Part shown: positions 21,854 to 40,562 of the stretch, one piece after another
Position numbering within the stretch: position 1 is the first letter of the stretch
Layout of the letters: each line of letters begins with the position of its first letter
Origin: Fidelibacterota bacterium
Lineage (GTDB): Bacteria > Fidelibacterota > Marinisomatia > Marinisomatales > TCS55
Assembly (NCBI GenBank): GCA_004124385.1
Contig: SCKN01000005.1
Coordinates: 62,001-126,000 of the forward strand
Reading direction: 5' to 3'
Length of the DNA stretch: 64,000 bases
Translations under genes and position numbers: made by a program
The notes under the pieces: model-generated
Told to the model about the DNA's origin: nothing
The model's input: only the letters and a program-made list of their open reading frames with translations
Databases searched by the model: none

Positions 21854-22480
21854 ATGCTAGTCGAATATTTCGTAAACGGCGGACCTTTCATGTGGCCCAT
21901 TTTACTGTCACTTGTTTTTGGTCTTGCTTTTGCAGGTGAACGCTTTTATTCATTAATTATGTCATCAATAAACGCACAGAAGTTTTTTGAGGATGTAAAT
22001 AATACATTAGACAATGAAGGGGTAGATGCTACACTTGAGTTGTGTGAAAAAACAAACGGCCCAGTTGCTGAAATTTTCCACGCTGGACTTTCTCGAGTTC
22101 ATCGTGGAATTATAGAAGTAGAAAAAGCTATTCAAAATGCTGGTTCGATAGAAATGTCTTTTCTGGAAAAAAACATGATCTGGCTCAATGCAGTTATCAC
22201 GATTGCGCCTATGCTAGGATTTACAGGTACAGTGGCTGGTATGGTAAATGCTTTTGATGCAATTGCAGCTGCAGACGATATTTCACCTGCGGTTGTGGCG
22301 GGTGGAATTTCTCAGGCATTATTAACAACTGCCTTTGGTTTGATCGTGGCAATGATTATTCAAATTTTTCAGAATATCTTTGTATCCCGAATTGATAAAT
22401 TGGTTCTAGATATGGAAGAGAATTCCATAAAACTTGTTGACCATCTTTACGAGATGGAAGTAAAGAAGAAAAAGAAATAA
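21854..22480 (+). CDS. exbB: MotA/TolQ/ExbB proton channel family protein
   Basis: 208 residues with three membrane helices: about 10-30, 108-130 and 150-172. The family core is present: LNAVITIAPMLGFTGTVAGMVNAF and ISQALLTTAFGLIVAMI, including the channel-lining Thr/Pro pattern. With ExbD it uses the proton gradient to energise TonB in the inner membrane. It heads a four-gene operon with two ExbD genes and TonB. The C-terminus is a lysine run (KKKKK). Confidence 0.92.
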   Translation: MLVEYFVNGGPFMWPILLSLVFGLAFAGERFYSLIMSSINAQKFFEDVNNTLDNEGVDATLELCEKTNGPVAEIFHAGLSRVHRGIIEVEKAIQNAGSIEMSFLEKNMIWLNAVITIAPMLGFTGTVAGMVNAFDAIAAADDISPAVVAGGISQALLTTAFGLIVAMIIQIFQNIFVSRIDKLVLDMEENSIKLVDHLYEMEVKKKKK

Positions 22481-22492
22481 ACCAATAGTATA

Positions 22493-22888
22493 ATGAAAAA
22501 GAAACGCCGCTTTCGACGCGGAGAAATCCCCACAGCTTCTATGGCCGATATAGCCTTTTTGTTGCTCATATTTTTTCTAGTGACTACTACAATTGATATG
22601 GACAAAGGACTGGGTATTGTTCTACCCGCTGAGGGAGAAGAGATAGAGATTAAAAAAGATAATATTCTCAATTGTTTGATTAATTCAAGTGGAAATGTTT
22701 TGTTGGGTGGTGAACCAATTAAAACAAAGGATATTGGAAAAGAGGTTCGGCGGAAAATTGCTGAAAATCAAAAACTGATTATTTCTGTTAAGGCTCATGC
22801 AAAAACAAAATATAGTGATTATATCGCTGTTATAGATCAACTCAAAATGGCGAATGCAAAACGTATATCTATTGCGGAAGTTGAATAG
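22493..22888 (+). CDS. exbD: ExbD/TolR-family protein, first copy
   Basis: 131 residues: a basic cytosolic N-terminus (MKKKRRFRRGEIPTASMAD), a membrane helix with the conserved proton-carrying Asp (ADIAFLLLIFFLVTTTIDM), and a periplasmic domain. The periplasmic half matches the family pattern (ILNCLINSSGNVLLGGEPI). It works with ExbB. The last base of its stop codon is shared with the GTG of the second ExbD. Confidence 0.92.
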   Translation: MKKKRRFRRGEIPTASMADIAFLLLIFFLVTTTIDMDKGLGIVLPAEGEEIEIKKDNILNCLINSSGNVLLGGEPIKTKDIGKEVRRKIAENQKLIISVKAHAKTKYSDYIAVIDQLKMANAKRISIAEVE

Positions 22889-23298
22889 TGAAACTCAAAC
22901 GTAAAACAAAAATATCGAGCGAAATCCCAACAGCATCTATGCCGGATATCATTTTCATGTTGCTGATATTTTTTATGGTTACAACTGTCCTGCGTAAATA
23001 TTCCGGCCTTCCCGTGGAACTCCCCAGGGCAAAACGGATTGAAAAGCTTAAATCAAAACGACACACGTCTAATATCTGGGTTTCAAAAGAAGGATTAGTT
23101 TCAATTCAAGACAAATTACATAGCGTTGAAAATATTCGTCATGTGATGTATGATATTCGCGCTGCAGACCCATTGTTAACCGTTTCTTTAAAAGCGGATA
23201 AATCTGCAAAAATGGGCTTGATTTCGGAGATTCATAATGAATTGAGAAAAGCAGATGCGTTGAAATTAAATTATTCAACCAAAACAGCTGTTGAATAA
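22888..23298 (+). CDS. exbD: ExbD/TolR-family protein, second copy
   Basis: 136 residues starting with GTG at 22888, overlapping the first ExbD by one base. Same layout: KISSEIPTASMPDIIFMLLI with the conserved Asp, then a periplasmic domain. The two copies share the SEIPTASM/GEIPTASM segment but differ after the helix, so they are old paralogues. Tandem ExbD pairs are common in Bacteroidetes-type TonB systems and may form a heterodimer in the ExbB pore. Confidence 0.92.
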   Translation: MKLKRKTKISSEIPTASMPDIIFMLLIFFMVTTVLRKYSGLPVELPRAKRIEKLKSKRHTSNIWVSKEGLVSIQDKLHSVENIRHVMYDIRAADPLLTVSLKADKSAKMGLISEIHNELRKADALKLNYSTKTAVE

Positions 23299-23300
23299 AT

Positions 23301-23915
23301 ATGGTTAAATATTCCCCCGTATTAAAATTCAACTACCCTGTTATAGTGCGTATAGCAGGTTTTTCTGGTATTTTAATTATAACTTTTGGGTTTTTATTTA
23401 CCCCTCGAAACTTTGATGTTTTTATATTAGATGAAGCCAATCAAATTATTATTGAACAGATAGATATTCCGCAAACCCAGCAGTTAGATTTGCCGCCACC
23501 GCCAGCAAGACCCTCTGTGCCCATTGAATCAGAGGATGAAGATTTAGAAGATGTTACAATTGAAGAAACCGATTTGGAAAGTTTTGAAGCGTGGGATGCC
23601 CCTCCACCTCCACCAGAGGGACCTAGAGTTAAATTTATTCCTTATGATGATCCCCCGAGGCCGCTCACGCCTATTCGCCCAAAATATCCTGAAATTGCTC
23701 AAGAAGCTGGAATCGAGGGGACTGTTATTGTTCAGGTCTTTGTAGATAAAAAAGGACGAGTAAAAGAAACAATTATTTTAAAAGGTATCCCAAACACTGG
23801 GTTGGATGAAGCAGCTATAAAGGCAATCCGTAAAACCCGCTTTTTCCCGGCTAAGCAGCGTGAACGGGCTGTGGGTGTTTGGATATCTATTCCAGTGAAT
23901 TTCAGATTGAAATAA
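23301..23915 (+). CDS. tonB: Energy transducer TonB
   Basis: 204 residues. One N-terminal membrane helix (about 13-33), a periplasmic stretch rich in Pro and acidic residues (LDLPPPPARPSVP, DAPPPPPEGPRV), and a C-terminal TonB domain from about 120 (IRPKYPEIAQEAGIEGTVIV, then RKTRFFPAKQRERAVGVWIS). It passes energy from ExbB/ExbD to outer-membrane receptors. No TonB-dependent receptor lies in the window. Confidence 0.92.
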   Translation: MVKYSPVLKFNYPVIVRIAGFSGILIITFGFLFTPRNFDVFILDEANQIIIEQIDIPQTQQLDLPPPPARPSVPIESEDEDLEDVTIEETDLESFEAWDAPPPPPEGPRVKFIPYDDPPRPLTPIRPKYPEIAQEAGIEGTVIVQVFVDKKGRVKETIILKGIPNTGLDEAAIKAIRKTRFFPAKQRERAVGVWISIPVNFRLK

Positions 23916-29248: not shown

Positions 29249-29285
29249 GAAAATAAAACAGCCTTCGCATTCAGCGGAGACTGTT
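29249..29285 (-). terminator. Terminator of the FliG/FliF/MotAB operon
   Basis: On the minus strand AACAGTCTCCGC pairs with GCGAAGGCTGTT (11 of 12 positions, one G-T wobble, one mismatch) around a 5-base loop, followed by TTTTATTTTC. It separates the motor operon from gshA. Confidence 0.8.
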
Positions 29286-29315
29286 TATAATAATAAGCGG
29301 TTTTTAATATAATGC

Positions 29316-30248
29316 TTATTCTACCATTTCACCGCCGCCAACCAAATCTGCTAGATTGAAAGCTCCATCTTTTTCCATCTGTTTTGCCGATGCAACAATT
29401 GTCTTTCTTGCTAGTTCTACTTCCCGCTTTGCAACAGCTCTTTCTACAGGATCAAACATAGCTTGTTTTTTCTTTGGTAGGTTTTCAATTACACGATTAG
29501 TTATGTCTTCTGACATCCCCTTCAAGGCCATTGCTATTGTATCAAGCTCCACAGAATTCATTAAATCCCGTATAATACTATCGGTTAATAAATCAAATAG
29601 AGCATCCCACGTTAGGTGATATTTTTTCACTTCAGCAGCAAGATCAGGGTTTTCTCTGGCAATATTTTCCAAAAATTGTGCTTCTTCTTCGGAACTTAAA
29701 CCACCCAAAATTTCCGCAACTTCTTTACCTCCACCCCGTGAAAATGCAACTGTTTTAGGTAAAAATTTTGATTTTTTATGGAGATCATTAGCCACGTTCA
29801 CCATAGCCTCTAATGGAATATCGTTTAAATTTCCCATCTCCATTATAATTTTTCCTTTTGATTCGGCAGATAAACTGTTTATCACTTTATTGCGACGTTC
29901 TCCAGGAATTTGAGCAAGTGCAATTGCTGCAACTGAATCCGATTCGGGTTTAACGAGAGCAATTAGCTGCTCATCTGTTAAATCGTCCAAAAATATAAAG
30001 GGTTTTTTTGGTTCATCAGATTCTTCATCTTGAAATTTTTCACTAACGAAACTGAAGTAAAATTCTTCCATTACATGTTTTTTCACAGCAAATGATACAT
30101 TATCAAGATCGCGCATTGCCGCTCGAACTTTACGTACCGATGTTTTTGATAAATCTTTTACCAACGTAAGGGCAAGCCCTTCTCCTAAAACAGAGAACAG
30201 TATTGCTGCCTTTTGAAGGCCTGAAAGTCTGTTAATATCTGTAATCAT
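29316..30248 (-). CDS. FliG-like rotor protein without the FliM-contact motif
   Basis: 310 residues alignable with FliG over all three domains. N domain (about 7-66): LSGLQKAAILFSVLGEG and KKHVMEEF, the part that binds FliF. Middle domain (about 84-163): where FliG has EHPQ this protein has ESDS (102-105). C domain (about 170-300): GGGKEVAEILGGLS, ENPDLAAEVKK, HLTW (211-214) in place of MFVF, the conserved ALKG (241-244) and a charged torque-helix region (KKK 259-261, DPVER 266-270). It should meet MotA at its C domain. No FliM or FliN is present. Last gene of its operon. Confidence 0.85.
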   Translation of the reverse strand: MITDINRLSGLQKAAILFSVLGEGLALTLVKDLSKTSVRKVRAAMRDLDNVSFAVKKHVMEEFYFSFVSEKFQDEESDEPKKPFIFLDDLTDEQLIALVKPESDSVAAIALAQIPGERRNKVINSLSAESKGKIIMEMGNLNDIPLEAMVNVANDLHKKSKFLPKTVAFSRGGGKEVAEILGGLSSEEEAQFLENIARENPDLAAEVKKYHLTWDALFDLLTDSIIRDLMNSVELDTIAMALKGMSEDITNRVIENLPKKKQAMFDPVERAVAKREVELARKTIVASAKQMEKDGAFNLADLVGGGEMVE

Positions 30249-30257
30249 GAGATTGCC

Positions 30258-31802
30258 TTATTTTTTCTTCTTTTTTTTCTTTTTATCGCCATCATCTTCT
30301 GTTTCAGCGGGAGTAGCCGCAACCACTGGCTCTGGTTCGGGTGGGGGTGTATCATCTTCCATCCATTCCTTTACTATTCGCGTCGCAGTGCTTGGCTGAC
30401 TAACACTCATAGATACAACTGCCTGACGCATATCAGAAATCTCGCTCTGCAAAACACTGGTGTCTTCCACGGGGGTGGATACTGCTTGTATGGCTGTCGC
30501 TTGTGGTGCTGGTTTCAACGATGTGTTTTTACTTTTTTTTTTCCGGGGTCGAGGAGGATACATCCACGGTGGGGGTAATTGTTGTTTCTGCCTATTACCC
30601 ATAATCATGATTGCCAACACAACAACAAGCACAATCACCAATGCCCCCAATAAAGATACGAATACAATCATCATTGTTGATGACCCACCTCCTCTGTTCA
30701 TACTACGATCTAAATCTGATTGCACAGCATCAAGCATGGCCAGTTTTTCAGCTATCTGAGAGTCTAATGCTGCTTTTTCACTCACTTTTTCACCCATGGC
30801 ATTTTTTGCTTGGGCGGCTTCATCTCCTGAAATATCATCAGAAGACATCATAGATTTTAAGCTGGTAATTTCATCGTTAAGCGCTTGTAGTTTTAATGAA
30901 TCGCGGCGCAAAATATCTCTTTTTTCTGCTTGATATGCTCTTTCTCGGGCAGCGGATTCTAGGTTTGTTAATTGTTGTTGAAAATACATTTTGTCTTGTT
31001 CTCGACGCGCTTCTTCCTGTGCTTTATAATTGTCTAACTCCTCTTTCCAGTTTACCAGACCATCACCCGATTGCCGTTGTTCCAATGATTCAAGTTTTTC
31101 AGCTATATTCTTCAATAAAATTTGTTCGGCTGTTTTCTCATCACGCCGTTCTTTAAACGTCGCTGTCATAATACTTAAAGCATCGTTTCGAGCACGATTA
31201 AATCGGGAAGCAACCATTACAACCTGCCGGATATTTTCTATGAGTTCCGGTGCTGCACCCTCTTGCAAAATAATGCTGATATCTAGTTTTTTAATATACG
31301 CAGTTGAAGGACGTCTACTGGTTACTGTGCGTGAAAGAACTTTGTTGTATCCATTATTAGACTGAACTGAAACAGGAGATTCCGCTGGAGATGTGATTTC
31401 ATTCATAGCAGGGGTAGTCATTTTACCCGCATCAGATTCAAACTCAAAACCGGGAATGGGTAAGCCCATAGAAATACCACTATTTTTGTTGTATGTAAAA
31501 TGATCAACTTTATTCGACGACTCGGTAGATATTGCTTCCAGTACTTGTCTGGGGCTTTGTTGACCATCGTCCACAATTGTAATTTGTTCCTCTGTCCCGG
31601 CACTGATTTCAATATCAGCATTTACATCAATGACATATTTCCGATCGTCAATTATTTTTGACAATGCGTTTGTTATGCGCTGACGAAGATCGTTTTCTAC
31701 CATCAATTTTTGTGCCAAGTAACCACTGCCTTGCCCAAAAAGCATACTTAAGCAGAAAATTGCTGTCAAAAATTGTTTATAAAATACTTTATAATTACTC
31801 AT
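30258..31802 (-). CDS. Reduced FliF-like ring protein (RBM3 domain, membrane helix, FliG-binding tail)
   Basis: 514 residues from ATG 31802, which has AAAGGAG 6 bases upstream. A signal or membrane segment (5-25) is followed by the FliF_C pattern (31-67: LRQRITNALSKIIDDRKYVI), then KLDISIILQ (172-180) and VASRFNRARNDALSIMTATF, matching the A-G-x-x-x-x-R-G-D-x-(I/L)-x-V end of that domain. The first two FliF ring domains are absent. A coiled coil (about 220-370), a membrane helix (about 373-402) and a cytosolic tail follow. The tail has QPSTATRIVKEWM (about 469-481), like the P-x-V-A-x-x-I-R-x-W-M that anchors FliG, and ends in eight Lys. Confidence 0.82.
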   Translation of the reverse strand: MSNYKVFYKQFLTAIFCLSMLFGQGSGYLAQKLMVENDLRQRITNALSKIIDDRKYVIDVNADIEISAGTEEQITIVDDGQQSPRQVLEAISTESSNKVDHFTYNKNSGISMGLPIPGFEFESDAGKMTTPAMNEITSPAESPVSVQSNNGYNKVLSRTVTSRRPSTAYIKKLDISIILQEGAAPELIENIRQVVMVASRFNRARNDALSIMTATFKERRDEKTAEQILLKNIAEKLESLEQRQSGDGLVNWKEELDNYKAQEEARREQDKMYFQQQLTNLESAARERAYQAEKRDILRRDSLKLQALNDEITSLKSMMSSDDISGDEAAQAKNAMGEKVSEKAALDSQIAEKLAMLDAVQSDLDRSMNRGGGSSTMMIVFVSLLGALVIVLVVVLAIMIMGNRQKQQLPPPWMYPPRPRKKKSKNTSLKPAPQATAIQAVSTPVEDTSVLQSEISDMRQAVVSMSVSQPSTATRIVKEWMEDDTPPPEPEPVVAATPAETEDDGDKKKKKKKK

Positions 31803-31837
31803 GATAGCTCCTTTGCTTATCAAATATAAATTCCTTT

Positions 31838-32686
31838 TTAATTAGTCGTTTTACCATCGTTCCCTACATAACTTGCTGAGTGGTGCGCTGGTTTCAAAAA
31901 TGTTATTTCTATTCTCCTGTTTCTGCCTTTTTTCTCCGGTGTATCATTGAATTTTAAGACAGTTTCCCTATCAAGAGATTTAAGCGCTAAACCGGCATCG
32001 CCCCTGTCACGTGGAACCCAATCAGCATAACCTGCAGCAACTAGGCGAGTAGGGTCAACCCCTTGAGTAATAATATTTCTCACCACTGCTGCGCCTCGCG
32101 ACGTTGACAGCTCCCAGTTCGATGGAAATTGTTTGTGAAAAACTTTTGGCAATTGATCGCTATCAGTGTGGCCTGCTACTTCAATTTGAAAGATCGAATT
32201 GTTTATTTCGCGAACAATATTATTTTTCAACAATTTTATTAAACCTGGGCTTAATTCAGAACTTCCAGATGCAAAACTGAAATCGCCGCTAATTTCCAAA
32301 GTTACTCCTTTAGGGCTTGTGGTTATCTCTACTGGAGGATCCCCTTTAGTGTCTTTCATTTCTGCTTTTATTTCTTTTACCATTTCTTTTAATGATGCTT
32401 TTACTTCAACCAACTTTGTTGCTTTTTTATCAAACCTACCTTCAAGTTCTGCTCTGCCTTCTATTTTAATTTTACTTCCTAATGATTTTCCTGCAGAGTT
32501 TGCCATCTCCATAATTTTTACTGGATCCATTGTAGACAATGCAGCTAACAAAACAAAAAACGCAAAGAGAAGTGTCATCATATCAGCAAACGTTCCAAAC
32601 CAACCAGGTAACCCTTCATCAACTTGGGATTTCCCCTTTTTAATTCCAGCTTTAAATGCTTTTTTTTCTCCTGACGTTTTTGCCAT
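31838..32686 (-). CDS. motB: MotB-type stator subunit with OmpA-like peptidoglycan-binding domain
   Basis: 282 residues. A short basic cytosolic N-terminus, then one membrane helix with the proton- or sodium-carrying Asp35 in GTFADMMTLLFAFFVLLAAL. A periplasmic linker (about 60-130) leads to an OmpA-like domain with EVAGHTDSD, NWELSTSRGAAVVRNII and GRNRRIEI. This is the MotB architecture, distinct from ExbD/TolR and from GldM/PorM. It should anchor MotA to the cell wall. Four bases separate it from motA. Confidence 0.92.
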   Translation of the reverse strand: MAKTSGEKKAFKAGIKKGKSQVDEGLPGWFGTFADMMTLLFAFFVLLAALSTMDPVKIMEMANSAGKSLGSKIKIEGRAELEGRFDKKATKLVEVKASLKEMVKEIKAEMKDTKGDPPVEITTSPKGVTLEISGDFSFASGSSELSPGLIKLLKNNIVREINNSIFQIEVAGHTDSDQLPKVFHKQFPSNWELSTSRGAAVVRNIITQGVDPTRLVAAGYADWVPRDRGDAGLALKSLDRETVLKFNDTPEKKGRNRRIEITFLKPAHHSASYVGNDGKTTN

Positions 32687-32690
32687 TTAA

Positions 32691-33473
32691 TTATTCTTCT
32701 TTTTTCCATTCCTTCGGCGGTATAAAAGAATTCAATTTTTCCCTAACGATCAAAGGATGTTTCTTTTGATGAATAAGACGAGCTGCTTCAACCAGCATCG
32801 CCTGCAATGTACTCGTGAAACTCATTCGTGTGTTTAATTTTTCACTCATTGGCAGAAAAAATAGGTTCGCGAATACAGTACCATAAAATGTTGTAATCAA
32901 CGCAGCCGACATACCGGGGCCCAATGCATCCGCGCCACCCTCTCCACCAAAACCTGACAACATAATAACCAGCCCAATCAACGTTCCGATCATACCCCAG
33001 GCGGGAGCCATGGTCCCCATAGATTTAAACAATCCTGCCTGTGTTTTTTCACGTATTTCCCGATATTCAATTCGTGTTTCTAATATTTCAGTTAATTCAT
33101 CTAAGCTATAACCATCCACTACCATTTGTACACCATCCCTGAAAAATGGATTTTTTATACTTTCAACTGATTTTTCAAGTTCAACTACGCCTTTACGACC
33201 TACCTCTGCTGTTTCTATAGCATCATCAACTACTGCACCCAGCTTAACTTCCCCGCCTTTAAAGACAGCGCCTATAGCGGAACCCAGCTTGAGAACATCT
33301 GACAAAGGAAAAGCAACCGATACCGATGCTATCATTCCTCCAAAAACAATTGCAAAGCTTGATGGTGAAATAAATCCGCCCATTCCTGCATTAGCAGCTG
33401 AAGCGGCTAAAAATATTCCGCCAAAAATTGATACCAAGCCAAGAATAATTCCTACTAATGTTGCAATATCCAT
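32691..33473 (-). CDS. motA: MotA-type stator subunit
   Basis: 260 residues from ATG 33473 (AGGGAG upstream; a TTG at 33494 is less likely). Four membrane helices with the large cytosolic loop of MotA between helices 2 and 3. Both family prolines are there: P157 in MAPAWGMIGTLIGLVIM and P208 in FANLFFLPMSEKL. With MotB it forms an ion-driven stator that pushes on FliG. It starts seven bases after the stop of the barrel-TPR gene. Confidence 0.93.
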   Translation of the reverse strand: MDIATLVGIILGLVSIFGGIFLAASAANAGMGGFISPSSFAIVFGGMIASVSVAFPLSDVLKLGSAIGAVFKGGEVKLGAVVDDAIETAEVGRKGVVELEKSVESIKNPFFRDGVQMVVDGYSLDELTEILETRIEYREIREKTQAGLFKSMGTMAPAWGMIGTLIGLVIMLSGFGGEGGADALGPGMSAALITTFYGTVFANLFFLPMSEKLNTRMSFTSTLQAMLVEAARLIHQKKHPLIVREKLNSFIPPKEWKKEE

Positions 33474-33480
33474 AGTCTCC

Positions 33481-34905
33481 CTACTCCTCCACAATGCTCG
33501 TGGAATTTAAACGGTTTTCGTGCAAAGCCTTTAAAATATTACGCACATCATCATATTCGGGATCCAGACGCAAGGCCAAATTCCAGTTAATCGTTGCCCG
33601 TTGCGTATCCCCAAGTTTATAATATATTGAGCCTCGTCGAGCATAAGCTAAGGCCATATTTGGATTCAAATCTAAAGCTGATTCCACTTCTTGCAATGCG
33701 GCTCGGTAGTCTCCGGCATAAAAATAGCGTAATGATCGAGATAAGTGACGCATGGCTTCATTCATATTTTTTTCGTCAACATTTCGACTCAATTTCATTG
33801 ATAATAATGAATCTTCTAAAAATTGAGACTGCTGCTCTATAGCCGCTAATTGGACCATTAAATTACGCATTTCATTTCTTAACATGTTCATAGAGTCCCG
33901 AACTGTATGAACAGCAAAATCAGCCATAGCCAAAGTGGAGTCCATAGAGGATGATAATGTTTCATATTGACCTGTCGCAGGTAGTTTAAGCTGTCCCCTG
34001 GGCAAAGGTGAGGGCACCCCTGAACGACCAGAACCTTTTTTAAATCCGCGTGGTACTGCCATATCAAATCCCAAAGTAATACCGGGATGACCTTCCCAAT
34101 ATCTGGATTTCCAGTCCGGCAGTTTTTCTATGTGGGTGAACCCTAGGTTCAAGCGATAATCCGAGGTAAGGGGGATGCGGAGTCCCACATTGATGCCTGT
34201 CCCGTCGAATTCACCCACAATATCTATTCCACCCCATTTTTTCAAATAGGGTGTATTCATAATTACGCCCACAAATACACCAGATTTAGTGCCTCCAGAC
34301 GTTGTTACTTCTGTAGTAGAAGATGATGTTTCTTCAGACGTACTTAAAGCCTTTATTGTATCTGCAGGTGCAAATCCACCCGACCCAAAACCCATAAAAG
34401 TGCTTAAATGATATTTACCCAAATCTTTTTCACTGCTTACCACAACAAAAAACGATAATTGTTCTGGGTCTAGACTTAAACCGCTTCCTCCGCTTGTTTC
34501 TGCATTTTGAAACACAATATCCTGCAAACCCAATGAAAGCGAAACATTATTGTATGTATAGACGCGCTGCTGCAAATGAAATCCAAATTCTACGGGCGGC
34601 GTGTATCCCGTTTTTCCCAGAAGAGCGGGGGCAGTGCTGTCTGCTGTCTGTACAGATGAAAAACCCAATGTGAAATTCTTTCCTAGCTCCATATCAAAAT
34701 AGATACCTTTAGCCGAGTTAAAAGGGTCAAATCTGTGAAGCTCTATACCAAAACCTGTACGGAATAAATATGGAGCTTGGGTTGTGCTGGATGTTGGAAT
34801 TTTCATCATAAACCCGGGACGAGTGTATGCAACACGAGACGCACCTGAGGATACTGACATTAACACCAAAAACGGTAATAAATAAACATATGATCGTCTT
34901 TTCAC
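33481..34905 (-). CDS. Outer-membrane beta-barrel protein fused to a coiled coil and TPR domain
   Basis: 474 residues. Signal peptide, then about 280 residues of alternating beta strands typical of an outer-membrane barrel (GFGIELHRFDPF, IYFDMELGKNFTLGFSS, YHLSTFMGFGSGGF, GINVGLRIPLTSDYRLNLGF). A linker leads to a coiled coil (about 325-375) and two or three TPR units near the C-terminus (RYFYAGDYRAALQEVESAL, YARRGSIYYKLGDTQRATI). The TPR part should sit in the periplasm. It could link the MotAB/FliF/FliG complex to the outer membrane; that link is an inference from operon position. Confidence 0.7.
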   Translation of the reverse strand: MKRRSYVYLLPFLVLMSVSSGASRVAYTRPGFMMKIPTSSTTQAPYLFRTGFGIELHRFDPFNSAKGIYFDMELGKNFTLGFSSVQTADSTAPALLGKTGYTPPVEFGFHLQQRVYTYNNVSLSLGLQDIVFQNAETSGGSGLSLDPEQLSFFVVVSSEKDLGKYHLSTFMGFGSGGFAPADTIKALSTSEETSSSTTEVTTSGGTKSGVFVGVIMNTPYLKKWGGIDIVGEFDGTGINVGLRIPLTSDYRLNLGFTHIEKLPDWKSRYWEGHPGITLGFDMAVPRGFKKGSGRSGVPSPLPRGQLKLPATGQYETLSSSMDSTLAMADFAVHTVRDSMNMLRNEMRNLMVQLAAIEQQSQFLEDSLLSMKLSRNVDEKNMNEAMRHLSRSLRYFYAGDYRAALQEVESALDLNPNMALAYARRGSIYYKLGDTQRATINWNLALRLDPEYDDVRNILKALHENRLNSTSIVEE

Positions 34906-35798
34906 TGCAACACCAGCTCCCCTCGCTTTATTTCTAATGTTGCTAATCGTAAGTATTCACTTTCAGGATGACCCACCACTACTTTTTTAAAAGAGTTCAA
35001 AGCTAAACCCAAATCGCCTTGATCTTTATAGAGTAATCCTTTTTTAACTAATGCATCATCAACCATATCTGATTTTTTATATGATAATAATTCATTTAAA
35101 ACTGTTAAAGCGCGTTCATAATCATGCATTTGTAAATATGCATCCGCTTTCCAATATAGAACATTTTCAATTTTATCAAGATCCGCTGATTGTAAGTTAA
35201 GGTCATCAAAACAATGCAGTGCAGTAGCAAGGTTTCCGCATTGGTATGCAAACATACCCGCCATATATAAATCCATGTCAAATCGTTTTGGTTGTTCCGG
35301 CAAAACCAGTACAATACTTTTTACTATTGGCAGTTCTTTAATGTCAATATTTTCCAGTATCTGTGGATCAATAAGCGCCATGTTGATTTCTGGAAGATCG
35401 GGTTTCTCTAATGCTGGTATAGAGAGATCTGTAAGTATTTGCTGTAGTTTAATATTTTCTGATACTAACACCATTACTTCATTGTGGAAAAATGTTTCCA
35501 AGTTCATCAATCGAGTATTAATTCTATCAATAGCAGTTAAAAGCTCCTGGTTTGCTATTGTATTCAATGTTCCGCTTTTAACCTGCTTAACCCTAATATT
35601 AACTTCTTTTGAAGGGCTTTCTATGTGGCGATTATAAACAACAACCCCACTAGACGGTTCAATAACAACACCAAGATCTAAAAGGTAAATCTCTGATAAA
35701 GATGATGATGGGTGCTGTTGGCCACTAATTGGAATCGTTAGGGAAAAAGTTATTCCCAGTCCGAATAAAACACGGCGGTAAAGAGATACCGCTGTCAT
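34902..35798 (-). CDS. Periplasmic TPR protein of the motor operon
   Basis: 298 residues from ATG 35798, whose A is the last base of the upstream stop codon (TAATG). A signal peptide (to about ISGQ) is followed by an unfamiliar region, a possible coiled coil (about 90-125), and a C-terminal TPR block (MAGMFAYQCGNLATALHCF, YLQMHDYERALTVLNELL, YKDQGDLGLALNSFKKVV). It overlaps the next gene by 4 bases. Likely a periplasmic scaffold of the same complex. Confidence 0.7.
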   Translation of the reverse strand: MTAVSLYRRVLFGLGITFSLTIPISGQQHPSSSLSEIYLLDLGVVIEPSSGVVVYNRHIESPSKEVNIRVKQVKSGTLNTIANQELLTAIDRINTRLMNLETFFHNEVMVLVSENIKLQQILTDLSIPALEKPDLPEINMALIDPQILENIDIKELPIVKSIVLVLPEQPKRFDMDLYMAGMFAYQCGNLATALHCFDDLNLQSADLDKIENVLYWKADAYLQMHDYERALTVLNELLSYKKSDMVDDALVKKGLLYKDQGDLGLALNSFKKVVVGHPESEYLRLATLEIKRGELVLQ

Positions 35799-36930
35799 TA
35801 TTCGTATTCCTCCCAATCAATGACATAAGAGTATCCGATAAAGGATCCAAAATCATTGGGCAAGAATAATTCAAACGCTCCAAACGCCCCCGGGAGTAAA
35901 GTGGCATCTGTGGTGATGCCGGAGTCGAAGGTGTGGTATGTTCCGCGTAAAAACGTAGTGAGTGTCTTGGTCTCACCGCTCCAGTTTTTACGAAATACAA
36001 AATCAACTTTCACAAAATCTGCCCGGCGGCCGCCAATGTTTTTAATCTCTCCTGTAAAGATAATTGCACCCTGATTATCCTTGCGCTCACTGATATTGCC
36101 AACCAGAACACAATTCGCAGAATATCTTTTTCCAGCTGAACGACTAAATGGATCAGCTGATGTATATTTGGGTTGTGCCAGTTTGGGCATGGGCGGTGGG
36201 GAGTAACTATCGCGAATCTGTTCTGGTACATATTCTTGTGTTTCCTCTGTTACCACATTATCAATAACCCTGACTATATTTTTACGTTCAATAATCAGAT
36301 AACCCAATAAAGTTTCGATTTTTAGTGTTTCTTCATCTTGATAAATAATCTTACCAAATACTGTGCTACCGTTTTGAAGTATTATTTCTTTTGAATAAAT
36401 AGCCAGTGGGTTTATCCACATTTTGCTTAAAGCCTTCAAGTCTTCCAGTTCGGAATTAAGATACTTGATTTCTGCAGATAGCTTTTTTAGTTCAAAACTT
36501 AATTCTGTTGTTACATAATCCGCATCGGTACCAGGAATATCTCCACCCCCTTTTAATACGACTTCTTTTTTGACTTCTGCTTTTACAGATAATACTAATT
36601 CTAAATCTTCTAAATCATCATTTGAAACAGTAATGGGGATACTGGCTTTCCCTTTTTTACCAGCATCTGCTTTTAAAACATAGTCACCAGGAAGGACTTT
36701 TTTAAATTTGAACGTAACCACCGCCCATACCCATCGCTTTTGGATGATTCCGTGCGTTGGGATTCAACGCCATCTGATGTAAGTAATAAAACGGTTGTTC
36801 TGCCAACTTTTTCACCATCTGCATCAAATACAGTACCTTTAACTTTGTAACCTTTTGCATTGAGGGTGGAGCTATAAGCAAAAATACTAAGTACAATAAG
36901 TGTGTATTTAAACAGCGATTTTATGTTCAT
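35798..36930 (-). CDS. Carboxypeptidase-regulatory-like/coiled-coil/Sm-like protein with an apparent frameshift
   Basis: Two frames join into one protein of about 377 residues. Frame 1 from ATG 36930 (GAGGT upstream) gives a signal peptide and KGYKVKGTVFDADGEKVGR, the start of a CarboxypepD_reg domain, up to SDGYGR. The rest of that domain, VTFKFKKVLPGDYVLKAD, is in another frame from about 36721. One extra base in the G-rich stretch at 36713-36725 would restore it. After this come a coiled coil (ELSFELKKLSAEIKYLNSEL) and a small beta-barrel-like unit (LQNGSTVFGKIIYQDEETLK). First gene of the motor operon. It may be a real mutation or a sequence error. Confidence 0.65.
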
Positions 36931-36983
36931 AAAGTTACCTCGGGTATGCAAGAATCAAGACGAACTACTGCCTTGGATAGATG

Positions 36984-37013
36984 AGTTTACCTACAACTCT
37001 GACCAAGTGTCAA
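36984..37013 (-). promoter_or_regulatory. Candidate sigma70-like promoter of the motor operon
   Basis: On the minus strand TTGACA (37008-37013), an 18-base spacer and TAAACT (36984-36989), 54 bases before the ATG at 36930. The -35 is perfect and the -10 matches four of six positions. Confidence 0.45.
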
Positions 37014-37177: not shown

Positions 37178-37207
37178 GCTTTAACGCTTTAATCAAAGCG
37201 TTAAAGC
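37178..37207 (-). terminator. Hairpin overlapping the stop of the PmbA-like gene
   Basis: Perfect 13-bp stem GCTTTAACGCTTT / AAAGCGTTAAAGC around AATC; the stop codon of the gene lies in the loop. A further partial copy of CTTTAACG lies at 37171. There is no T-run on the minus strand, so it may act as a 3' stabiliser more than a strong terminator. Confidence 0.5.
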
Positions 37208-38515
37208 AAAAGAGTCTACAAGGATACCAGGACATGTTGTTGCGCCTAAGGATCGACCGCCATATGTTTCTACTTCCGGGTTTACACTAAATTTATCTTC
37301 TACTTCAATCAGCCTTCCTCCAAAGAAGTTGTAAAACGAATCATCAAACCTCATCGTTTCAATGGGAGCAATGATTTCTCCGTTTTCTACCCAAAAGCAT
37401 GCGTATCTTGTTAATCCAGTTATTCGGCCACCCGCATTATCACTCCAGTTTAAATAATGAATATTTGAAAGATATAATCCCTCTCCAATTTCACTAACCA
37501 CATTTTCATGGTTCAGGCTTCCAGTGGACATTTTAGGAGAACGCATATATTCACCGGATTCGGCATAGTTGGACTCCACACCATATTCTTTTGCAGATCT
37601 GGAGCTCACTAATGTGTTTTTCAACTCTCCGTTTTCAATCAAGGATAGTTTCTCTGCAGACACTTCTCCATTAGAATTGAATTTGGGGCAAAATCCCGAA
37701 GAGAAATCTTCAACAATAGAAAACTTTGGAGACAAACGAATATCATCATGCCGCATACGGCCAAAACCACTACAACCTTGGCGCAACGATGCTTCAGAGA
37801 TTCCATTCCATGAAAACATTCCCAAGAAATCGGCTACAGCCGCTGATTCAAACCAGGTTCGATAATTACCCGTATTAATTTTTATGGGCTTTCTTTCCAT
37901 AAGAATTAATTTTTCTCGGGATCGTTTTACATAAGATTCATAGTCTTCCTGATTCCAATTGTTTCCTGTAAATGAACCCTTCACCATTTGGTGTTCCGGT
38001 GTAACCAGAGAATAATCTAAACTGAATGATTCTGTCTCGAACCAATGTTTTTGTCCTAGGCTATTTGCATTGCCGCGGAACATTCGTCCATTGGCCCAAA
38101 CACCAACGAAATCAACTCCGGACATGGCTGGCAAAATTGCATCCACCGCATGTTCGAACGGCAAACTTTTGGCTGGTTTTATTTCATGGCTGGAACCAGT
38201 GTTCTCTGGAAAAACAACAAATGGATCTTCTGGAATTTCCTGGGCCTCCAATCTCATTCGTGCAATCTCTGACTTACCGCGAGCAACATCTATATCAAAA
38301 TTACCCGACACAGTAAACCCGCCGCGGATAGTTCTATTGTTGGCGATAAATTTTAAACCTAAGTTTGTATCGTCGACTAAACCAGTCTGGCGAACAGCTG
38401 CATTATTAAACCGAATAAATTGACTGGTTTCTCCTGAAAAAGAAAGAATCAGGTTTTCCCCGTTTTGTAATTCAGAAAAAAGACTTTCACTCAATTGATT
38501 AAAAATTTGTTCCAT
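37193..38515 (-). CDS. pmbA: TldD/PmbA-family protein, PmbA (TldE) type
   Basis: 440 residues, non-catalytic partner type: it lacks the HExxxH motif of its neighbour but has the family C-terminal fold (GLYLSNIHYLNWSDNAGGRI, TRYACFWVENGEIIAPIETM). TldD/TldE form a heterodimeric zinc protease that degrades or matures unfolded peptides. It lies two bases after the TldD gene, as expected for a pair. The closing GATTCPGILVDSFALTL is a common end of PmbA proteins. Confidence 0.88.
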   Translation of the reverse strand: MEQIFNQLSESLFSELQNGENLILSFSGETSQFIRFNNAAVRQTGLVDDTNLGLKFIANNRTIRGGFTVSGNFDIDVARGKSEIARMRLEAQEIPEDPFVVFPENTGSSHEIKPAKSLPFEHAVDAILPAMSGVDFVGVWANGRMFRGNANSLGQKHWFETESFSLDYSLVTPEHQMVKGSFTGNNWNQEDYESYVKRSREKLILMERKPIKINTGNYRTWFESAAVADFLGMFSWNGISEASLRQGCSGFGRMRHDDIRLSPKFSIVEDFSSGFCPKFNSNGEVSAEKLSLIENGELKNTLVSSRSAKEYGVESNYAESGEYMRSPKMSTGSLNHENVVSEIGEGLYLSNIHYLNWSDNAGGRITGLTRYACFWVENGEIIAPIETMRFDDSFYNFFGGRLIEVEDKFSVNPEVETYGGRSLGATTCPGILVDSFALTL

Positions 38516-38517
38516 AA

Positions 38518-39960
38518 TTAAACACCTCCAAAGACTTGTATGTTTTCAAATAGACAGGCGGGCGAAGCATGTCCAACACGTATGACCTGGTTTGGCTCAC
38601 CCTTTCCACAATTCGGCGTTCCATAAATACCAAAAGTATCCACATTCCCCACACCTTTCAGACTGCGCCAAAACGGATTGGAAATGCCACGATAATTCGG
38701 GTTTTTGACTGTCTTTGTCATTTTACCATTTTCAATCAATTTGCCATATTCACAACCAAACTGGAATTTGTTTCTGTAGTCATCAATGGACCAGGATTTA
38801 TTACTTTCCATATAAACACCGTACTCAACTTGGGATATTAATTCATCAAATGAACTGTTGCCTGGTTCGAGATTTATATTAGCCATACGGTCGATGGGCG
38901 CTCTATTCCAACCGCTGGCTCGGAAATTTGCAACACCATTAAGCCCTGAACGAATCTGGCTTTCTTGTCCACCCAATCCACGAACCAATAAACCCTCTTT
39001 TATTAAATATTCCTTCGTTGCTTTCAACCCGCCGTCATCAAAGGCATAGGATGCAAATTCTGATTCCAATGTTGGGTCAAAGGTAATATTCATAAGTTTT
39101 GACCCGTACTGCAGCTTTCCAAAATCTTCTAATTTCACAAAGCTCCAACCGGCATAATTCCGTTCATCCCCGAGGATTCGATCAACTTCCAACGCATGAC
39201 CAATGCTTTCATGGATTTGCATCATCATTTGGTCTGGTGCAATAACAACATCCATTTCTCCCGTTGGACAATCATCAGCAGATAATAGTTCTAGAGCTTG
39301 TTCTCCAATTCGATTTGCATTTGCAAGGATCTCATATTTATCAAAGTATTCCATTCCTATTTGTCGGCAAGTACCGCGCATTCCGCCAAAGGTTCGAGTC
39401 TGTTGATTTGGCCCGTCCGCAGCTGTGGCGCTTAAGTCAAATTCAAGCATTAGAAAATCCTGATGAATATCACTCCCATTTGAGCTCACAAAACGAAACG
39501 TTGTCTCAATTACCTGACACAAAGAAGAGGCGCTTACAATTTTATCAGATACCTTTAGATGGTTGTAAGCTTCCAATAAAATCTCATTCAATTTCCCCGC
39601 AGAAAGATCATTCCGGTTTTTAGTAAAAGGAGATTGATAGCTTCCTTGGTGGCTTGGGCGGGCGCTTTCATCAAATTGATAATGGGCGTTGTGAGATGCA
39701 ATTTCCGCCTGCCGATATGCTTTTTTAGCAGCCTTTGCGATGCTTTCCGGCGACATATCCGGTGTTCCATAATAGCCAAACTGACCATTGACCAACACTT
39801 CTACCATGATTCCATGAGTAGATACTCTGCCGTTTGCAACTGGAACTCCATCCCGTATCATTCTTGGTGTATGTGCTTCGTATACTTCTCGCAGACCCAC
39901 CCATTGCGCCGGTACGTCTACAGCATTTAATAATTGTTTTATATCTATATCTAATTTCAT
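38518..39960 (-). CDS. tldD: TldD-type metalloprotease
   Basis: 480 residues. The zinc motif is HESIGHALEVDRI (HExxxH form), followed by the GWSFVKLEDFGKLQYGSKLM strand and GNVDTFGIYGTPNCGKGEP near the end. With the PmbA-like protein it forms the TldD/E protease; substrates are modified peptides and unfolded chains. Both genes are at full length and intact. Confidence 0.9.
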   Translation of the reverse strand: MKLDIDIKQLLNAVDVPAQWVGLREVYEAHTPRMIRDGVPVANGRVSTHGIMVEVLVNGQFGYYGTPDMSPESIAKAAKKAYRQAEIASHNAHYQFDESARPSHQGSYQSPFTKNRNDLSAGKLNEILLEAYNHLKVSDKIVSASSLCQVIETTFRFVSSNGSDIHQDFLMLEFDLSATAADGPNQQTRTFGGMRGTCRQIGMEYFDKYEILANANRIGEQALELLSADDCPTGEMDVVIAPDQMMMQIHESIGHALEVDRILGDERNYAGWSFVKLEDFGKLQYGSKLMNITFDPTLESEFASYAFDDGGLKATKEYLIKEGLLVRGLGGQESQIRSGLNGVANFRASGWNRAPIDRMANINLEPGNSSFDELISQVEYGVYMESNKSWSIDDYRNKFQFGCEYGKLIENGKMTKTVKNPNYRGISNPFWRSLKGVGNVDTFGIYGTPNCGKGEPNQVIRVGHASPACLFENIQVFGGV

Positions 39961-39983: not shown

Positions 39984-40562
39984 CTATTTCCAAAAATCTT
40001 CATATATCTTTTGTTTTTTCAACATTATGCTTAATCGCTGTTCTGTGTCTTTTGTTAGATTTTCATCCAAAATGCCTTCTAACGATTTTTGATATGACTC
40101 AATAATAAGTTCAAAATCTTTTGAATCTTTTTTTTCATAGGTTCGACCCATCCAATAATAAGGTTCATTCTTTTCGGGGTTATAATATGCAGCTTTACCA
40201 TACTGTTCCAAGGCCTTCCACAGCGCTGAATTACTTCCTTTCTTGAAAAAACGATGCCCAGATATCATCGCCAGGCCATATTTGGCTGATTTATTTTTAG
40301 TTTGAATTTTTAGCACATTGTTAAATTGTAATTCTGCTGATGAATAATCGCCATCAGCCAACGCTTTGGTTCCCAAATTATTGTGGGCGCTTACAATCGC
40401 CTGAATTATTTCGTCCGATATATTTTCTCCCTTTAACAACTCTTCTTTATTAGCAATAATGGTTTCGGGTTCAGACTCTGCCAATTCGGTCACAGTAGGA
40501 ACACAGCCAACTATTATTAGAGTTAACACCATCAATAGGTGTTTTTTGTTCGGGACCATCAT
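39984..40562 (-). CDS. TPR lipoprotein
   Basis: 192 residues. A lipoprotein signal with LIIVGC as lipobox (Cys about residue 20), then TPR-like helices (LGTKALADGDYSSAELQFNN, LWKALEQYGKAAYYNPEKNE, YYWMGRTYEKKDSKDFELII). Function unknown; it probably faces the periplasm. It ends 23 bases before tldD and starts 4 bases after the hydroxylase gene on the same strand, so these may be one transcript. Confidence 0.75.
   Translation of the reverse strand: MMVPNKKHLLMVLTLIIVGCVPTVTELAESEPETIIANKEELLKGENISDEIIQAIVSAHNNLGTKALADGDYSSAELQFNNVLKIQTKNKSAKYGLAMISGHRFFKKGSNSALWKALEQYGKAAYYNPEKNEPYYWMGRTYEKKDSKDFELIIESYQKSLEGILDENLTKDTEQRLSIMLKKQKIYEDFWK

Follow-up and report, generated by a model that had tools for sequence, protein, structure and literature searches.

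FliG and FliF are generally regarded as flagellar proteins, and the known non-flagellar ion-driven motors (Ton, Tol, Agl, Gld and Zorya) are not known to have a FliF-FliG ring. The operon described here, found in a 64,000-nucleotide stretch of DNA that we refer to as the window, carries homologues of both proteins next to a MotA/MotB stator and three envelope proteins. The question that it raises is what such a set of genes is for. We found that the operon very probably encodes a flagellar-type motor that operates outside the flagellum, and this motor probably acts on the outer membrane or the cell surface. Any single specific output, be it surface movement, secretion or envelope upkeep, is proposed only tentatively.

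Seven genes lie on the minus strand between 29316 and 36930 of the window, overlapping or separated by 4-14 bases, which bears out the close packing on one strand described in the original prediction. They are transcribed in the order envelope protein, periplasmic TPR protein, outer-membrane protein with TPRs, MotA, MotB, FliF-like protein and FliG (Table 1). The genes had also been placed between a promoter-like site and a strong terminator. The terminator-like hairpin stood out from shuffled sequences, but the promoter did not, as the consensus scan found promoter-like sites in the region at the shuffle level (27 found against a mean of 22.7, sd 4.3). The operon genes are under purifying selection, with dN/dS values of 0.03-0.24 where these were not saturated.

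Several neighboring genes were also noted. Upstream of the operon are two genes (37193-39960) that look like a pair of the TldD/TldE type, and beyond this pair lies a minus-strand gene for a TPR protein with a lipoprotein-like start (39984-40562). A separate ExbB-ExbD-ExbD-TonB locus is encoded on the plus strand at 21854-23915, ~5 kb from the motor operon, and similar genes were encountered near the operon in two other families. Flanking genes recur beside the operon in seven families at most, and those recurrent neighbors that were identified are mostly housekeeping genes.

Table 1. Features of the operon and of its boundaries, given in window coordinates.
Feature	Coordinates	Strand	Basis
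Terminator-like hairpin with T-rich tail, 3' of fliG	29256..29286	-	Sequence and fold (z = -2.97 against shuffles)
fliG-like gene (310 aa) encoding all three FliG domains (N, M, C)	29316..30248	-	Pfam, PDB phmmer, residue counts, tree
fliF-like gene, 521 aa (ATG at 31802 is the probable start)	30258..31823	-	Pfam, AlphaFold model, Foldseek, tail comparison
motB, 282 aa; plug region, channel residue Asp35 and an OmpA-like domain that binds peptidoglycan	31838..32686	-	Pfam, residue count
motA, 267 aa (ATG at 33473 is the probable start); FliG-facing loop with Arg100 and Glu107	32691..33494	-	Pfam, PDB, residue counts
Outer-membrane protein of 474 aa; signal peptide, then a predicted barrel (12 strands), a helix of 75 residues and a TPR tail	33481..34905	-	AlphaFold, Foldseek, alignment
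Periplasmic TPR protein, 304 aa	34902..35816	-	Pfam TPR_2 (6.5e-9), synteny
First gene, envelope protein, frameshifted	35798..36930	-	ORFs, sequence, alignment, Pfam on an orthologue
Promoter-like site (TTGACA-N18-TAAACT), 5' of the first gene	36984..37013	-	Consensus scan

Rotor, stator and envelope proteins

The four flagellar-motor homologues named in the original prediction, which are MotA, MotB, FliG and the C-terminal domain of FliF, all scored above the curated Pfam cut-offs. FliG matched each of its three domains (FliG_C 1.4e-19, FliG_N 3.9e-18 and FliG_M 1.8e-10), and a phmmer search of the PDB matched it to the FliG of T. maritima at 7e-18. The residue equivalent to K264 is Lys in 39/39 operon FliGs and the residue equivalent to R281 is Lys or Arg in all 39, both in presumed E. 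coli numbering. It was noted that the acidic pair D288/D289 is out of register in the operon FliGs, with an acidic residue nearby. The FliM-docking motif EHPQ is nearly invariant in 51 flagellar FliGs and is lost in the operon FliGs, among which neither its His nor its Gln was present in any of the 39 counted.

The stator proteins were examined in the same manner. MotA matched the MotA_ExbB family (7.3e-28) and MotA in the PDB (1e-40), and MotB matched the plug (3.4e-14) and OmpA (6.7e-10) families. Among the operon sequences, the FliG-facing residues of MotA (Arg in 40/40, Glu in 38/40) and the channel Asp of MotB (40/40) were found to be kept. Models of flagellar stators fit the pair far better than models of the Ton/Tol type (ExbB/TolQ and ExbD/TolR).

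The FliF-like protein matched YscJ_FliF_C (7.6e-9), and Pfam gave no match to the N-terminal FliF domain YscJ_FliF (RBM1/RBM2), so the earlier description of this protein as FliF with RBM3 only holds. The AlphaFold model comprises a signal or transmembrane helix, one RBM3-like domain, a periplasmic coiled coil of ~150 residues, a transmembrane helix and a cytoplasmic tail. When this model was compared with Foldseek, the 18 best matches were solved FliF rings (2e-7 to 1e-5), and the next match stood at 0.07. Flagellar FliF proteins end in a motif that is known to bind FliG. The tail of the window's protein, QPSTATRIVKEWMEDD, has this motif in common with flagellar FliF tails such as KPEEAAEIIRSWLVAD, and its Trp is invariant across 40/40 operon FliFs. 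The original prediction had allowed that profile searches might fail to place the FliG- and FliF-like proteins; profile and fold searches put both in their families.

The three remaining genes encode the envelope partners. For the outer-membrane protein, the strands, long helix and TPR helices predicted by AlphaFold agree with the barrel fused to TPRs that had been proposed, the PDB matches to the model were barrels and TPRs, and few regions of the operon are as well conserved as the TPR tail. TPRs were found above the curated Pfam cut-offs both in this gene and in that of the periplasmic TPR protein, which had likewise been anticipated. The latter protein shows the lowest conservation in the operon and occurs in one or two copies in relatives.

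The first gene had been read as encoding a coiled-coil protein, of which the coiled coil stood and the intact gene did not. It is split in the window into two ORFs (36673-36951 and 35798-36721), with the frame broken near 36700-36750, and in close relatives it is a single ORF of about 390 aa; the frame change could reflect faulty assembly or a genuine loss in the window's genome. The 5' part (36673-36930) encodes a signal sequence and a carboxypeptidase-regulatory-like domain, which is an addition in the window's order, and the 3' part (35798-36721) encodes the coiled coil, a small beta domain and a strongly conserved C-terminal domain. In distant lineages, a lipobox-like Cys follows the signal sequence, giving the protein a lipoprotein-like start.

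Distribution in Marinisomatota and independence from flagella

A comparison of gene order in Marinimicrobia genomes had been suggested as a check. We found the seven genes in one fixed order in loci from about 20 families of Marinisomatota (Fidelibacterota), which excludes a chance arrangement. The phylum implied by that suggestion agrees with this phylum-wide distribution. A profile of the FliF-like protein, against which flagellar FliFs score weakly, matched 103/149 genomes of the phylum, and the other 46/149 were without this homologue.

The original prediction held that FlhA, FliM and FliN are missing, and took flagellar loci elsewhere in the same genome as evidence against itself. In the window's genome (2.09 Mb, 96.8% complete), neither FlhA, the type III export gate, nor the FliM/FliN C-domain was found, and the only copy of FliG is the operon's own. 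Because FlhA and FliM/FliN are absent, rod, hook and flagellin are presumably absent from this genome as well, and no export, rod, hook or filament genes were found within the operon. FlhA was also not found in most of the carriers and is present in 34/149 genomes of the phylum. Some genomes possess both systems, such as G010, in which the flagellar locus lies elsewhere and two FliGs are encoded.

We also noted a genome in one contig (G017; 2,788,509 bp) that carries the operon, lacks FlhA and has the operon's FliG as its sole FliG. This genome appears to be that of Fidelibacter multiformis IA91 (2.79 Mbp), and a cultured carrier of the operon therefore probably exists. Strain IA91 has been described as non-motile (PMC11652737). 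The non-motility of this probable carrier counts against swimming but does not bear on slow surface movement.

Additional motor genes were observed in two of the Marinisomatota genomes. In G017, about 7 kb from the motor operon, another MotA gene precedes two MotB-like genes (L267:3148-5358). G026 carries the seven-gene operon and a flagellar FliG, together with a second, fused FliF-FliG gene and two TPR proteins at L214:6580-10149, with no adjoining MotA/MotB.

Other phyla were searched as well. In the KSB1 phylum the FliF profile gave weak or partial matches only (11/82 genomes), and the first-gene profile, in a search run without an internal positive control, had no match in 28 single genomes of other phyla. 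Several proteins with FliG_C were considered and set aside as not belonging to the operon's system, namely a Cloacimonadota protein that joins FliG_C to a domain of the ribose/galactose isomerase RpiB (L210:7106-7807), a 144-aa FliG_C protein in a Bacteriovoracaceae genome and a short FliG_C protein in a Planctomycetota genome.

A fused relative in the Bacteroidota phylum and the FliG tree

The Bacteroidota-phylum set comprised 396 genomes, all from the phylum to which a Balneola MAG belongs. FliG_C was found in proteins of about 590-700 aa in 23 of these genomes, and 20 of the 23 loci were fetched. All 20 encode a natural fusion of a FliF-RBM3 protein and FliG, the ring part of which matched the operon FliF with 99% probability (E = 5.5e-18) in a profile comparison. 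In 19/20 fusion loci the fusion is accompanied by MotA, MotB and a TPR protein that is a homologue of the tail of the barrel, the remaining locus being cut off by a contig end, and the same set occurs at a further locus in the Balneola MAG (L211).

Three arrangements were distinguished among the fusion loci. The first includes a 360-400-aa protein that is possibly a small barrel, and the second runs TPR-MotA-MotB-fusion, an order shared with Marinisomatota. The third includes small secreted pilin-like proteins, a PapD-like chaperone and a roughly 1000-aa barrel-like protein. In this third arrangement, one small secreted protein scored above the DUF4402 cut-off, the PapD match was weak, no protein matched the usher family, and profile searches against the PDB turned up no informative relative for the chaperone-like or usher-like proteins. 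The C-terminus of the barrel-like protein is the same TPR as the operon barrel's tail, and this arrangement points to the TPR as a link between the motor and an outer-membrane channel or fiber. An example is L253:1206-12035, where the fusion, MotA and a long MotB with a SPOR domain lie beside pilin-like (DUF4402), PapD-like and barrel-like genes; L248, L251, L256-L259, L264 and L265 resemble it.

The relationships among the FliGs were assessed in an unrooted tree of 68 sequences. The flagellar FliGs fall on one side of a branch with a support of 98, and those from operon-bearing genomes group with the other flagellar FliGs. A separate group (support of 89) holds the Marinisomatota operon FliGs, and the Bacteroidota fusions make up the third group, the one exception being the long-branched L214. 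Since the operon FliGs stand apart from all sampled flagellar FliGs in this unrooted tree, the operon might be a preserved older use of the flagellar engine.

A candidate envelope-spanning motor and competing readings

From this examination, the operon probably encodes an ion-driven rotary motor that is non-flagellar, spans the envelope and delivers force to the outer membrane or surface. The absence of FlhA, FliM and FliN, the family placements, and the torque and channel residues that are kept all support the ion-driven, non-flagellar envelope rotor originally predicted. FliF, FliG and MotAB belong to their families and conserve their interface residues, and these components would be expected to assemble into a ring that rotates. 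In such a motor, an RBM3-only FliF ring would hold the FliG ring under the inner membrane, and MotA/MotB units, anchored to peptidoglycan through MotB, would push the FliG ring. Rotation would then be transmitted through the FliF collar, with its coiled coil in the periplasm, to an outer-membrane complex of the barrel, the TPR protein and the first-gene protein, with the 75-residue helix and TPR tail of the barrel reaching into the periplasm. We infer that this complex is the target because no export gate, FliM or FliN was found and the operon contains no gene of the flagellum proper, and the invariant co-occurrence and predicted topology of the proteins suggest that the FliF collar acts on the barrel complex. 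The most likely output would be force on the outer membrane or surface that moves a surface structure or energizes an outer-membrane channel, and not swimming. As FliM is missing, the motor probably turns one way only. Counted against the motor reading were the acidic FliG pair, the frameshifted first gene, the non-motile probable carrier and the genomes of the phylum that lack the FliF homologue (46/149).

We compared the operon with known systems. The flagellar motor has a homologous stator and rotor, with the MotA Arg/Glu, the MotB Asp, the basic FliG residues and the FliF tail all kept in the operon. The operon differs from it in having a FliF of RBM3 alone, a lost EHPQ motif, a separate FliG clade and a genome without FliM/FliN and FlhA, and in always including the outer-membrane barrel, the TPR protein and the envelope protein. 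Chaperone-usher pili are resembled by one Bacteroidota class of the related motor, with its pilin-like (DUF4402), PapD-like and large barrel-like proteins, but the PapD and DUF4402 matches are weak, no usher family was matched and none of these genes occurs in the window's operon. To our knowledge, classical ushers work without an ion motor. The Agl-Glt system of Myxococcus (AglRQS with Glt) likewise joins a MotAB-type motor to periplasmic TPR and outer-membrane proteins (PMC9389320). However, it is not known to include FliG or FliF, and the operon gave only weak, sub-threshold matches to the GltJ and GltE models.

By homology the engine belongs with the flagellar motor, and as a machine it would be new. 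In the open-access library that was searched, no description was found of a non-flagellar FliG/FliF motor in Marinimicrobia or its Bacteroidota relatives, and a 2025 survey on MotAB evolution leaves the carrier phyla unnamed. It is conceivable, as a more speculative proposal, that Marinisomatota and the Bacteroidota phylum share an undescribed class of machine in which a MotAB stator and a FliF-FliG rotor turn or energize a barrel. In one branch this would be a large barrel of a chaperone-usher-like pilus, and a surface fiber would be rotated or exported without flagellar export. A conserved operon that retains the engine without the flagellum would indicate that the engine can be a standalone module and would make the origin of the flagellar motor easier to test. 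It would also point to an unrecognized energized surface activity in an abundant, mostly uncultured marine phylum.

Among the competing readings, the one that survives best, although unlikely, is that the operon is the energy-coupling motor of the T9SS and replaces GldL/GldM. GldLM, which serves the T9SS and Bacteroidota gliding, is also an ion-driven motor of the 5:2 type tied to outer-membrane machinery, but in the operon MotAB is combined with FliG/FliF. The model of the SprA translocon finds 147/149 genomes of the phylum, yet the GldM model matches 0/149; the latter model works in the Bacteroidota phylum, where 94/396 genomes are over the cut-off. GldM is over the cut-off in 0/23 carriers of the FliF-FliG fusion, against about 5.5 expected if the two were independent, a mutual exclusion that may merely mirror lineage. 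However, the operon is not a general requirement for the T9SS, since roughly one genome in three in the phylum, some of them streamlined to near 0.9 Mb, has SprA and lacks the operon, and no T9SS genes were found in or beside the operon.

Slightly less likely again is a Tol-Pal-like motor for envelope maintenance, which would keep the outer membrane attached or move lipids and would serve no surface structure. The operon consists exclusively of envelope proteins, is present in genomes with and without flagella and has a probable cultured carrier that is non-motile, all of which would fit such a role. TolQR-Pal and ExbBD-TonB are also ion-driven inner-membrane units that work on the outer membrane, but they are not known to use a FliF-FliG rotor ring. 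The window moreover has its own separate ExbB-ExbD-ExbD-TonB locus, one Bacteroidota class is linked to pilin-like and barrel-like genes, and many genomes lack the operon.

A static gate, scaffold or sensor, in which the ring and stator are present and do not rotate, appears improbable. Rotation is a step that we infer, and the acidic torque pair of FliG is out of register, which would suit a static assembly; against it, the basic torque residues, the MotA Arg and Glu, the MotB Asp and the FliF-FliG link are all kept. The proposal of a decaying flagellum remnant, to which the four flagellar homologues, the missing export genes and the frameshifted first gene in the window could point, is largely refuted and highly improbable, as the operon FliGs make up a clade of their own that excludes the flagellar FliGs found in the phylum, flagellated genomes hold both systems, the gene order is fixed across the phylum, the genes are under purifying selection, and the three non-flagellar partners are always included.
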